Shown here in pieces: positions 10,628 through 39,674 of a stretch of DNA of 64,000 nucleotides (positions within the stretch are counted from its first letter, which is position 1; each line of letters starts with the position of its first letter). The translations under genes and the position numbers were made by a program. Source of the stretch: Phycisphaerae bacterium (lineage in GTDB: Bacteria; Planctomycetota; Phycisphaerae; Sedimentisphaerales; Anaerohalosphaeraceae); NCBI GenBank assembly GCA_012729675.1, contig JAAYCR010000025.1:1-64000 (forward strand), read 5' to 3'. The notes beneath the pieces are model-generated. The model made no database searches. It saw nothing but the letters and a program-made list of their open reading frames with translations, and was not told the origin of the DNA.

Positions 10628-10792
10628 CGGGAAATATGTCAACCCCTAAAATATTATTTTTGAAAATAATTTTTAAATTTTCGACAACTCCGGCCGCAAA
10701 TCAACACAAGGCATATAATGCCTTTTTAAGGTAGATCACATCCGACTATTCCAATTAATGCGGCCCGGAATAGATAAACCAAATGATTGTGT

Positions 10793-10821
10793 TTGCCAAA
10801 CACAAAACTTCTTGATATAAT
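10793..10821 (+). promoter_or_regulatory. Near-consensus sigma-70 promoter of locus A with overlapping palindrome
   Basis: The -35 box TTGCCA (10793-10798) and the -10 box TATAAT (10816-10821) are 17 bases apart. The -35 box lies inside the perfect palindrome GTGTTTG-C-CAAACAC (10789-10803), a candidate operator. The same arrangement, with strong similarity through the spacer, occurs at 38533-38561. Confidence 0.75.
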
Positions 10822-11047
10822 ACCCCTCAGTCGGGCGCACCGCCCGAATGGAGGAAAATATGAACAGAAAATCCCGACCCAACTCAAAACTAAGAACCAA
10901 ATACTACGAACAATGAACTACGAACTAAGAACTAAGAACTACGAACTAAGAACTATTTCTGCCCTCAGTGCCCTCTGTGTCCTCGGTGGTAAAATAAGCA
11001 AAATTCGACCTTCTGACTCCTGTCTCTTGACTTCTGACTCCAGAAAA

Positions 11048-11089
11048 ATGAACAAACAAACCCAATGTTCTATTTTGCAAAAACCATAA
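11048..11089 (+). CDS. Possible 13-codon micropeptide of locus A
   Basis: The frame encodes MNKQTQCSILQKP and ends in TAA. Locus B (38678-38719) has a frame of the same length, MNKQTQFSDLHIL, with the same flanking bases on both sides. The first six residues and the length are shared, but the rest differs and no strong ribosome-binding site precedes either copy. It may be a fragment of a once longer reading frame rather than a translated peptide. Confidence 0.25.
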   Translation: MNKQTQCSILQKP

Positions 11090-11434
11090 AGTATTATTCC
11101 TCAACTGTTTACTGATAACTGCTCACTGATAACTGAATAAAAACAAACCCAAACAAAGCCAAAATACCCAAAGCCTCAACCTCGATAGGAGTGCTTCGGA
11201 CGAATACTGGCGAAATGGACAAGGGCGGACATCCTGATTGGCCGCCATCCTTCCGGATGCCCTCTCGCAGACGGACTTTCTGTTGAAACTCCGGACATTT
11301 TCCAAACTTCCCCGGCAACAATCGCCGATAACCGAAGTATAGATTGAATATTATTACCAAAGTCAGTAAAATACTATCAAGATTCAAATGGATTTATATT
11401 ACTGTATTGGTTTTTTATCTTGAAAGGGCACTTT

Positions 11435-17121: not shown

Positions 17122-17142
17122 AACCAAGAACTAAGAACTATT

Positions 17143-18777
17143 TTGCGTTTTGCACTGGCACAACTGAATGTAACGGTCGGCGATCTTGCGGGCAATCGAC
17201 GCAAGATGGAAGATAGTCTGCGGGCAGCGACGGAAAAAGGAGCCGATTTACTGGTCTTTTCCGAGCTGGCGCTGAGCGGCTATCCGCCGGAAGATTTGCT
17301 GCTGCGTCCGCGGTTTTTGCGCGATTGCCAGGCGTCGCTTCATACGCTGGCCAAACAAACCGGCTCGATGACGATGGTGGCCGGCTTTCCGGACGGGATG
17401 CCAGATAAATGTTATAACGCTGCGGCAGTCTGTCGGAATGGAAAGGTCGTGTCGGTCTATCACAAAGGGCTGTTGCCCAACTACGGCGTATTTGATGAGA
17501 AACGTTATTTTGTCCCCGGCGCATCGCCGGTGTTTCTGGAGATCGCAGGCGTTCGAGCTGCACTGACAATCTGTGAGGATGTGTGGGATATTGAATGGCT
17601 GGATTCATTTCTTAACGGCGATTCACAGAAGCCGGAGTTGATTTTGAACATTTCCGCCTCGCCGTTTCACGTCGGCAAGATTCATCAGCGAAAAGAAACG
17701 CTGGCGCGCTGCGCGATGCATTTCGGCTGTCCCGTCGCCTACTGCAATCAGGTGGGCGGGCAGGATGAATTGGTCTTTACCGGGCGGAGTATGGTGCTGG
17801 ATGCCGCGGGCAAGGTGTGCGCCGAGGCGGCGGAATTTGAAGAGGACTTGTTGATCGTCGATGGTGCAAAAACGGACAACGGCGTAGTGCTGACGCTTCC
17901 GTTTTCGGCGTATGTCGAACGGCACTATGATCCGCTCGAGGAAGTGTATCACGCGCTGGTGCTGGGCACGCGCGACTATGTGCATAAAAGCGGCTTTTCC
18001 AAGGTCGTCATCGGCCTCAGCGGCGGGATCGACTCGGCACTGGTCGCAGCGATGGCGGTTGAGGCGCTGGGGGCGGACAATGTCGTCGGCGTAACGATGC
18101 CGTCGCGGTTTAACAGCGCTGAGACGCAGGCCGACGCCAAACGGCTGGCGGACAATCTGGGAATCACCTTTTATGCCCTGCCCATCGGCGCGATGCTGGA
18201 GCCGTTCAGCAAAACGCTGACTGGGGTGCCGGGCTGGGATGAAAAGGGGCTGGCCTACGAAAATCTCCAGGCGCGCATCCGCGGGACGCTGCTGATGAGC
18301 CTGTCCAATCAGTTCGGCTGGATGGTGCTGACCACCGGAAACAAGAGCGAAACGGCGGTGGGCTACTCGACCCTCTACGGCGACACCGCCGGCGGGTTTG
18401 CGGTCATTAAAGACGTACCCAAGACGATGGTTTATCGGCTCTGCGACTACATCAACGCCCGGTTTGGCCGTGAGGTAATTCCGCAGACGACGATCACACG
18501 GATTCCCTCGGCGGAGCTGCGCGACAACCAGAAGGACAGCGACTCATTGCCCGACTATCCCGTGCTGGACGCACTGCTCAAAGACTACATCGAGCACGAT
18601 CAATCGCCGATGGAATTGATTGAAAGCGGCTATGACCAAGCCCTTGTCAAACGTGTGGTGCGGATGATCGACCGTAGCGAGTACAAGCGCCGCCAGTCGC
18701 CGCCGGGTATCAAAATCACCCCCAAGGCCTTCGGCAAAGATCGCCGTATGCCGATCACCAATCGTTACATTCCCTGA
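17143..18777 (+). CDS. nadE: Glutamine-dependent NAD+ synthetase
   Basis: The 544-residue enzyme makes NAD+ from nicotinate adenine dinucleotide, ATP and glutamine. The N-terminal nitrilase-type amidase domain has Glu41 (FSELALSGYPPEDLL), a lysine in VYHKGLLPNYGVFDEKRYF and the nucleophile Cys in LTICEDVWD. The C-terminal synthetase domain has the P-loop IGLSGGIDSAL at about residue 290 and GNKSETAVGYSTLYGD. An in-frame TAA at 17119 and the conserved N-terminus force the start to TTG 17143. No Shine-Dalgarno site precedes it; the preceding bases are the repeat AAGAACTAAGAACTA. It is convergent with the next gene, one base apart. Confidence 0.93.
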   Translation: MRFALAQLNVTVGDLAGNRRKMEDSLRAATEKGADLLVFSELALSGYPPEDLLLRPRFLRDCQASLHTLAKQTGSMTMVAGFPDGMPDKCYNAAAVCRNGKVVSVYHKGLLPNYGVFDEKRYFVPGASPVFLEIAGVRAALTICEDVWDIEWLDSFLNGDSQKPELILNISASPFHVGKIHQRKETLARCAMHFGCPVAYCNQVGGQDELVFTGRSMVLDAAGKVCAEAAEFEEDLLIVDGAKTDNGVVLTLPFSAYVERHYDPLEEVYHALVLGTRDYVHKSGFSKVVIGLSGGIDSALVAAMAVEALGADNVVGVTMPSRFNSAETQADAKRLADNLGITFYALPIGAMLEPFSKTLTGVPGWDEKGLAYENLQARIRGTLLMSLSNQFGWMVLTTGNKSETAVGYSTLYGDTAGGFAVIKDVPKTMVYRLCDYINARFGREVIPQTTITRIPSAELRDNQKDSDSLPDYPVLDALLKDYIEHDQSPMELIESGYDQALVKRVVRMIDRSEYKRRQSPPGIKITPKAFGKDRRMPITNRYIP

Positions 18778-37852: not shown

Positions 37853-38532
37853 ATCTGCCTCCACAATAAAGTCCACAATTACAATCCATAAACTTTACCA
37901 CCCCCCGCCCCCAAAGTCAACCCACTACACCCCAGTTCGTAGTTCAAGCTTCAGTTTGTCTTTCGAGTCCGTTGGGACACCCAATCCGTAGGGGCGAACC
38001 TATGTGTTCGCCCATTAAAACAAGAAAATTCCGCCCTAATAGAAAATCGGAAATAGGAAATGACGTCGTCCCCCGTCCCCTCGTCAACCAAACAGCCTGC
38101 CGCAGCAGGCGCCATATTGTAGCCTCGGCCGTCAGGCCGTGGAACCTAAAGCCGCCCCCTATTCCCACTTCCCCGGCCGCGGTGCGGGCGGGAAAGTGGG
38201 AAAAAACGCCATCGCCCACACACCACAGGCTAACGCCGCGTGGCTACATCATTCCGCCCTTCGGGCTAAAGCTGTAAAACATTATTTTACCACGAAAGCA
38301 CGAAGAGCCTTGGCGCGGCAGGACCGCAACCAAAATTCTAAACACCAAATCCTAAACAAATTCAAATTGAAAACTCGAAATCAAAACATATTTTAAACCT
38401 ATTATACACAATATGTTATGGTTTCGGTTGTTGAAAAACGCGCAAACATTCACGAAATTGATGGATTGTAGTACGATGTTTCTTCGTGATAAAAAACAAT
38501 AATCCGTGTCAATCTGTGGTTTCAAAAAAAGT

Positions 38533-38561
38533 TTGACAAACACAAAACTTTCCACTAAAAT
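38533..38561 (+). promoter_or_regulatory. Near-consensus sigma-70 promoter of locus B
   Basis: TTGACA (38533-38538) and TAAAAT (38556-38561) are 17 bases apart, with GTTTG-A-CAAAC overlapping the -35 box. The spacer AACACAAAACTT and the bases after the -10 box (ACCCCTC) are shared with locus A. Downstream, AAGGAG precedes ATG AAT AAA TGA, only three codons. Confidence 0.72.
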
Positions 38562-38677
38562 ACCCCTCGCAGCCAGACCATCGTGCCGCAAACCGAAGGA
38601 GCAAAAAATGAATAAATGATTTCGATATTCTGAGTTCTGTGTTCTGGCGGCTGGAAGCTGGAAGCAAGAAGCTGAAA

Positions 38678-38719
38678 ATGAACAAACAAACCCAATTTTC
38701 TGATTTGCATATCCTATAA
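38678..38719 (+). CDS. Possible 13-codon micropeptide of locus B
   Basis: The frame encodes MNKQTQFSDLHIL then TAA, the same length and position as the frame at 11048-11089. It may be translated, or may be a fossil of a longer repeat-derived frame; no strong ribosome-binding site is seen. Confidence 0.25.
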   Translation: MNKQTQFSDLHIL

Positions 38720-38953
38720 AGCATTATCCCAAAACGGTTTACTGATAACTGACAACTGTTGACCGGAAAAACGAACCCAATTCAAACCCAATTCCCAAAA
38801 TCATCGGATAGGCTCAATCTGAATCAAAAACGCGGTGTAGTATCGAAAATTAAAAAAAAGGTTGCAAAAACACGTCTGAGCGATTAAAAAAGCCATCTTA
38901 TTAATGGAACGTGTTTAAATGACAATTGGTTTAACTGCTTTTAGGAGGTATTC

Positions 38954-39127
38954 ATGCAGGCTTACGAAGAACTGAAGACTCTCGTCGCGGAGATCGAATC
39001 GGATATAGAAAAGGCACAGGGCGGCAACAAGGCCGCAGGCACACGCGTCCGCAAGCAGATGCAGATGATCAAACAAGCGGCTCAGAATGTTCGCAATAAT
39101 ATCCTTGAGATACGCTCAACCGACTAA
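38954..39127 (+). CDS. Hc1-like (histone H1-type) small DNA-binding protein
   Basis: The 57-residue protein reads MQAYEELKTLVAEIESDIEK, then GGNKAAGTRVRKQMQMIKQA and AQNVRNNILEIRS. The block NKAAGTRVRK is the hallmark of the short chlamydial/planctomycete Hc1-type histone-like family, where it forms a helical hairpin that binds DNA; the long Lys-rich tail of chlamydial Hc1 is absent. AGGAGG at ideal spacing precedes the ATG. It is probably a nucleoid protein. A large repeat cluster lies upstream and fabZ follows 73 bases later. Confidence 0.85.
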   Translation: MQAYEELKTLVAEIESDIEKAQGGNKAAGTRVRKQMQMIKQAAQNVRNNILEIRSTD

Positions 39128-39200
39128 AACCACAACCGATAGACCGGAATCGTAAAGTATTTTGTTTTAAGTACTTAGAGATCCCGAATACGAGGTTTAC

Positions 39201-39674
39201 ATGCCCCCGACCCGACTGTTTGACATGTCGGAGCTGGATTTGAATAAGGTGGAATATGATCGCTCGGCGATTGCCGAGGTCAATCCTCAGTCTTATGAAA
39301 TGTCCCAGCTTGACGCTATTGTCTGGCACGATTTGTCGAAAATGCTGTGTCTTGGCTATAAAGATGTTACGGACAAAGAATTCTGGGTACGCGGCCATAT
39401 CCCCGGCCGCCCCATTATGCCGGGCGTGATTATGGTCGAGGCCGCCGCCCAATTGTGCAGCTTTTTTATGAAGCGGATTTACGGCCTTGAGGACTTTATC
39501 GGCTTTGCCGGCATCGGTGAGACCAAGTTTCGCGAGACCGTCGTCCCGGGGGATCGCCTGTGGCTTTTGGGACACATCCACAAGGTACGCAGTCGCCAGT
39601 TCTCGGCCAAGGTACAGGGCATTGTCAACGACAAAATGGCCTTTGACACGGTCATCAGCGGCATGAGGGTCTGA
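39201..39674 (+). CDS. fabZ: 3-hydroxyacyl-[acyl-carrier-protein] dehydratase FabZ-type
   Basis: This 157-residue hotdog-fold protein contains RGHIPGRPIMPGVIMVEAAAQL, the FabZ active-site block (read here as RGHIPGRPIMPG plus VIMVEAAAQL) with catalytic His and Glu. It dehydrates 3-hydroxyacyl-ACP in fatty-acid or lipid A-related synthesis. The N-terminus is slightly extended (MPPTRLFDMSELDLNKVEYD). Its stop overlaps the next start (TGATG at 39672-39676), coupling it to the UvrC-like gene. Confidence 0.88.
   Translation: MPPTRLFDMSELDLNKVEYDRSAIAEVNPQSYEMSQLDAIVWHDLSKMLCLGYKDVTDKEFWVRGHIPGRPIMPGVIMVEAAAQLCSFFMKRIYGLEDFIGFAGIGETKFRETVVPGDRLWLLGHIHKVRSRQFSAKVQGIVNDKMAFDTVISGMRV

Follow-up and report, generated by a model that had tools for sequence, protein, structure and literature searches.

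What are the two matched stretches of intergenic sequence that stand about 28 kb apart on one contig of a Phycisphaerae bacterium? The question arises from a 64,000-nucleotide stretch of that genome (contig JAAYCR010000025.1 of assembly GCA_012729675.1, positions 1 to 64,000; hereafter the window), for which a first-pass annotation, made from the letters alone, described two loci, A and B, with a common series of parts: a sigma-70 promoter with a 17-base spacer, a Shine-Dalgarno (SD) site before a very short frame, a second short frame beginning MNKQTQ, and a phrase reading KTNP. It suggested a repeated transcribed element, either a small RNA or a micropeptide gene. All of the parts that it named are present at both loci and in the same order (Table 1). 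Based on a comparison with the rest of the genome and with related genomes, we consider it likely that both loci belong to a non-coding intergenic repeat, non-autonomous and probably mobile, that has its own transcription start.

Two loci of one composite repeat family

Compared pairwise, loci A and B share a tail block (129 bp at 78% identity, E 8e-23) and a promoter block (38 bp at 82%, E 2e-4), and the order of the blocks is the same in both. By themselves the two loci are weak proof of anything, because the promoter count of the A or B region alone is close to that of shuffled sequences and a single promoter of such quality is near chance there. The significance of their likeness comes from matches across a whole family and not from individual promoters. 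In the source genome (G000, a 2.8-Mb draft in 96 contigs, denoted here by C numbers, with genome-wide counts taken from searches), iterated profiles over fetched loci recovered the 3' module at least 24 times and the 5' module at least 20 times. A 32-nt tail pattern matched 18 places, against 0 for its reversed control, and locus B as a blastn query gave 37 matches. A tail model of 118 positions found 24 of 24 copies at E 1e-24 or better, these being the same copies that built it. Counts from some of these searches are lower bounds. All copies are intergenic according to a simple gene-calling script. The 5' modules on C14 and at C51:40 kb lack a tail, and both lie at contig ends, as expected of repeats that break an assembly. 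The proposal of a repeated element, conserved at its ends and variable between them, is therefore borne out, and the further copies that the first-pass annotation proposed to look for exist both in this genome and in its relatives.

A typical unit is ~0.25-0.5 kb long, from the -35 box to the AACCCAAT tail. It opens with a sigma-70-like promoter, whose -35 and -10 boxes are 17 nt apart, and continues 5' to 3' through a G+C-rich hairpin, an SD site with a start codon and a variable body to the tail. TTG stands at exactly 17 nt 5' of the -10 box in 19 of the 20 aligned 5' modules; the exception, at C51:6 kb, is one base off register owing to the choice of -10 word. Over 21 promoters, found by a search that imposed the 17 nt and including a doubtful one near C89, hexamer columns are 91% identical versus 66% for the spacer. 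The GTTTG-N-CAAAC palindrome that had been described on the -35 box is indeed found at A and B but is not a family feature, as most copies lack it. The units at C13:129 kb and C91:3.6 kb match each other from the TATAAT box to the 3' side, while their upstream halves are unrelated (TTGACAATCACCAAACTTCCCGC versus TTGCCTTTCGGCCTGTTTTATGG), and both are correctly spaced; C14 and C51:40 kb show a similar exchange of the upstream half. This natural swap of the -35 region between C13 and C91 is, among our sequence comparisons, the strongest argument that the predicted promoter works. Promoter, spacing and leader conservation together suggest, indirectly, that the element is transcribed, as had been proposed.

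The SD sites and very short frames described at A and B also belong to a general pattern, since an SD site followed by a start codon occurs in 19 of 20 5' modules. The stems of the leader hairpin vary by copy (CGGGCG/CGCCCG, CACGGCC/GGCCGTG, GAGCG/CGCTC), with z < -1 in 15 of 20; that of B is degenerate (z = 0.69). Leader frames run from 3 codons at B and 18 at A to a maximum of 96 elsewhere, and their sequences are mostly unrelated. Short tandem words make up the body, among them the seven-base words CTG-N4 and CTA-N4, in arrays, and the nine-base word TCCTCNGTG. Its length and content vary between copies, and near-duplicates differ mostly by whole heptads.

The tail combines two kinds of block, AACAAACCCAAT boxes at each end and CTG triplets at seven-base intervals. 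Across 44 tails, drawn from two genera, identity is 98% in the CTG columns, a value somewhat inflated because the register was picked to maximise CTG, and 76% in the four intervening bases. The tail is G-poor (10% G versus 22.5% C) and gave no consensus RNA structure (0 consensus pairs); a search of Rfam 15 returned 0 matches above the gathering threshold. An integron attC site and a CRISPR array were considered and rejected, given the lack of consensus folding in the tail and the mutual homology of the segments between boxes.

Table 1. Parts of loci A and B, in window coordinates.
Feature	Position	Strand	Remarks
Locus A, complete short-form unit	10791..11166	+	near-duplicate at G000:C70, flanks unrelated
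Locus A promoter, TTGCCA-17-TATAAT	10793..10821	+	predicted transcription start ~10828
Locus A boxes	GTTTGCCAAAC 10791-10801; TTGCCA 10793-10798; TATAAT 10816-10821		TATAAT followed by ACCCCTC
Locus A 5' leader hairpin, TCGGGCG-CAC-CGCCCGA	10831..10847	+	z = -3.06
Locus A SD site GGAGG and 18-codon leader frame	10850..10916	+	GGAGG 10850-10854; ATG 10860; MNRKSRPNSKLRTKYYEQ, then stop
Locus A variable body	10880..11047	+	heptad array (ACTACGAACTAAGA), CTCAGTG..TCCTCGGTGG word, TTCTGACTCCTG array
Locus A conserved 3' module	11048..11165	+	box AACAAACCCAAT, CATAA, CTG-N4 heptads, box AACAAACCCAA
Locus A MNKQTQ frame	11048-11089	+	stop TAA
Locus B unit	38533..38794	+	body very short (~60 nt)
Locus B promoter, TTGACA-17-TAAAAT	38533..38561	+	predicted start ~38568
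Locus B boxes	GTTTGACAAAC 38531-38541; TTGACA 38533-38538; TAAAAT 38556-38561
Locus B SD site GGAG and 3-codon frame	38597..38619	+	ATG 38608; MNK, then stop
Locus B MNKQTQ frame	38678-38719	+	stop TAA
Locus B conserved 3' module	38678..38794	+

Several further features were observed in or near the units. On C7, C65, C68 and C76 an extra block of ~57 nt with a second hairpin (CATGGGCATCTTGCCCATG) lies between the leader hairpin and the SD site, with a variant in C40; in several copies this block is bordered by the direct repeat TGTCCCGCAG. At the start of C11 and the end of C48, two units run upstream into a common sequence, apparently the end of an insertion sequence (GAGCCACTTGCAAAACCCTCCGAAACGCGGCAGAACCG...), near contig breaks. 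Within the window, a small AAGAACTA heptad array at 17122-17143 lies outside any unit and has the same word as the locus A body. Just upstream of locus B, at 37986-38290, is a different dispersed repeat block with words such as CGTAGGGGCGAACC...TGTTCGCCC and TTCCGCCCTTCGGGC, which has matches on many of the genome's other contigs and in the congener G001.

Distribution across the order

Related versions of the unit occur well outside the source genome. In draft genomes of relatives, the tail model matched 16 of 39 genomes of the family at E 0.001, where the weaker matches span the heptads only, and 33 of 161 genomes of the order at 1e-6, the latter spread over two families. Multi-copy versions particular to their lineages occur in other genera and in a second family of the order (f7). 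For instance, a genome of a sister genus (G029) has its own version in ~35 matches; in 14 of the 20 copies inspected the promoter, TTGACA-16-TATAAT, carries ATCTAACTT. In these copies the SD site is present and the start codon usually absent. A T-tract stands directly before the tail in most of them, often after a stable hairpin; at loci A and B no hairpin with T-tract terminator was found. In a second example, G006, about ten copies are present; those that were matched have TTGACA-17-TATTAT, and the leader frame is 38 codons long (MPTTKKAGMQW...FEQTNPILTFT). In f7, tails with common boxes stand in tandem, and the intervening segment resembles ATGAACGTAA..GGATTATGAAAAT.

By pattern and by model, the tail was found in none of three congeners of the source organism (G001-G003). 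An exact 20-mer scan of a contig collection returned three records only, all planctomycete, and the named records with related boxes are planctomycete metagenome-assembled genomes. Collections of phages, plasmids and viral contigs gave no matches.

Mobility and competing explanations

Two near-duplicate pairs suggest that the unit moves. The copies at A and on C70 match over 373 bp at 85%, those at C27:37 kb and on C63 over 373 bp at 90%, and in both pairs the flanks are unrelated. In the congeners no unit was found ahead of the orthologues of the genes that follow A and B. The gene after B (38954-39127) encodes a 58-aa protein (MQAYEELKTLVAEIESDIEKAQGG...) that looks histone-H1-like and is conserved in the congeners; G003 conserves its upstream region from ~38850, just past the end of unit B.

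We propose that RNA polymerase would start at the unit's predicted promoter and produce a short RNA, which the 5' hairpin and ribosome loading at the leader start codon may stabilise. In the sister-genus subfamily this RNA would end at the hairpin and T-tract just before the tail, while in the source genome it would either stop within the body or tail, which are unstructured and poor in G, perhaps through the action of Rho, or continue past the unit. Since the sister-genus RNA would stop before the tail, the tail is best viewed as a DNA-level part, which would act mainly in recognition or copying and not as coding sequence. Copies would spread at the DNA level via putative machinery supplied in trans and would swap segments with one another, and their bodies may lengthen and shorten by slippage of the short tandem words. 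Any influence on neighbouring genes is likely incidental.

A number of observations weigh against a mobile, promoter-carrying repeat. In the congeners, whose completeness is 77-88%, synteny breaks down on the upstream side of A and B; because the further-upstream gene differs, a precise empty site cannot be read in them. A search with the unit's ends in its own genome and a limited set of inspected loci tied no transposase, recombinase or reverse transcriptase to the unit. A and B are without terminal inverted repeats and show no clear target-site duplication, and none is evident at C68. Gene conversion, and not transposition alone, could account for the sequence that copies share. Finally, several copies (at C86:2.8 kb and on C5, C48 and C11) have no detectable promoter, some of them owing to truncation or an inserted insertion sequence, so the promoter may be non-essential.

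The alternative that survives best is a miniature inverted-repeat transposable element (MITE) proper, derived by internal deletion from a DNA transposon that is bounded by terminal inverted repeats GTGTGYGAGAATATTTTCCGGCA; A and B would be copies that have lost these ends. About half of the copies extend past the short end into TGCCGGAAAATATTCTCACACAC, the boundary being sharp. The inverse of TGCCGGAAAATATTCTCACACAC is found at the opposite end on C68 and C5, the only units with both ends inverted, as well as to the left of C86, so some units, unlike A and B, lie inside MITE-like inverted ends. On C68 (20778-21393) both ends surround a complete unit. The family is also multi-copy and has no coding capacity, as MITEs do, and an unrelated sequence on C40 has matching inverted ends. 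However, a recognisable left end is present in only 3 of 24 copies and neither end at A or B; the end motif also stands by itself, in congeners too, close to tRNA genes or the starts of genes; searches with the ends gave only solitary ends or small elements and no transposase with such ends; and the ends are not seen on units of other lineages. We regard this explanation as possible though on balance doubtful. The C40 sequence (~38983-39280) is an element of ~0.29 kb with inverted ends TGTTTGAGAATTTTTTCTGGC and GCCAGAAAATATTCTCACACA, internal hairpin words and a GTCAAC direct repeat on each side, and has only its ends in common with some family copies. In two species of the genus (in G003 and on C23 of the source genome), the motif CCNGAA(A/G)ATATTCTCACA was also noted shortly 5' of tRNA-like sequence.

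Could the unit instead be a portable promoter and leader that regulates the downstream gene? A gene on the same strand follows 19 of 24 tails, usually at 80-280 nt, yet divergent gene pairs supply much of this bias, and the ratio is 5 to 3 among the tandem pairs that can be judged. Five copies point toward the end of a convergent gene, the downstream genes have no evident common function, and at B the region upstream of the next gene is conserved independently in G003. A regulatory role is therefore unlikely. We consider it slightly more unlikely that the copies are small-RNA genes retained for a cellular function and not a selfish repeat. The promoter and leader hairpin are conserved, and the hairpin and T-tract of the sister genus often close the unit ahead of the tail, but the body is unconstrained in sequence and length, and the copies are multi-copy and lineage-specific, with none found in the congeners and no match in Rfam. 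A more speculative extension of the mobile repeat, to which we give little weight, is that transcribed mobile units exist across the order whose own RNA helps to copy or target the unit, with the tail as the recognised DNA site; if true, RNA-assisted copying would explain why an exactly spaced promoter and a leader are kept in a non-coding unit.

A family of micropeptide genes, encoded by the MNKQTQ frame or by the leader, is very improbable. In its favour, most copies keep the MNKQTQ frame open as far as the TAA, the leader carries a start codon behind an SD site, and a single frame stays open through 61 of 63 f7 tails. Against this, the MNKQTQ frame starts at ATG, TTG or GTG without an SD site, it is broken by indels in 3 of 24 copies, and it is not the same frame across lineages, the ATG of the sister genus opening a different one. 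The codon-level conservation that the first-pass annotation suggested looking for is absent: entropies at codon positions 1 to 3 are 0.55/0.37/0.36 bits in the source genome, 0.49/0.52/0.42 in the sister genus and 0.92/1.14/0.95 in f7, and in none of them is the third position the most variable. The spread of leader frames from 3 to 96 codons, with mostly unrelated sequence, also speaks against a peptide family, and the open frame of f7 may be simple inheritance. The MNKQTQ frame as a peptide gene is thus not supported. The KTNP phrase exists as the translation of the conserved AAAACAAACCCAATTCAAACCCAAT end, and it recurs across the order as DNA. Similarly, KTNPIQTQF-like phrases in planctomycete predicted proteins correspond to a one-frame reading of the AAAACAAACCCAATTCAAACCCAATT box. 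Given that the tail DNA shows no coding selection, predicted proteins of this type in these bacteria are probably spurious and arose when a DNA repeat was annotated as protein.

That low-complexity word arrays resemble one another here by chance is conceivable in that the body words are simple tandem repeats also found elsewhere in the genome and its congeners. It is ruled out by the zero control counts, the fixed order of the modules and the match of the tail model to all copies, in agreement with the first-pass annotation.

Comparison with known systems

No earlier description of the composite unit was found in the open literature, of which our coverage was limited, and the likenesses are with three known kinds of repeat. 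The unit resembles MITEs in being non-coding, multi-copy and, in some copies, sharp-ended; it differs from them in that inverted ends occur in few copies and no partner transposase was found.

The TAACTGA heptamer repeats of Beggiatoaceae, Cyanobacteria and Bacteroidetes, for which there is no evident transfer mechanism (PMC4679880), are a second case. The CTGATAACTG heptads of the tail, two at A and one at B, contain this heptamer, and in both systems the repeats are intergenic and often upstream of genes. TAACTGA arrays, however, stand alone near start codons (PMC4679880), whereas here the heptads are one block of a composite unit, and the unit keeps its CTG triplets while the four intervening bases change. 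Arrays of heptamer words in several phyla, which have no agreed explanation, are thus tied in this lineage to a defined composite repeat with a conserved predicted start. With ~20 predicted promoters in one genome, their activity could be read from any RNA sequencing of the lineage.

The nearest known system in kind, by analogy, is the Correia elements (CREE) of Neisseria, which are short mobile repeats that bring promoters (PMC2649163). Like CREE, the unit is short, dispersed, intergenic, non-autonomous and promoter-carrying (PMC2649163). The ends of A and B lack the inverted repeat with conserved core that characterises CREE, and A and B, unlike CREE, have a single 5' promoter, a leader with SD site and start codon, a body built of words and a AACCCAAT tail. 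The likeness is one of kind.
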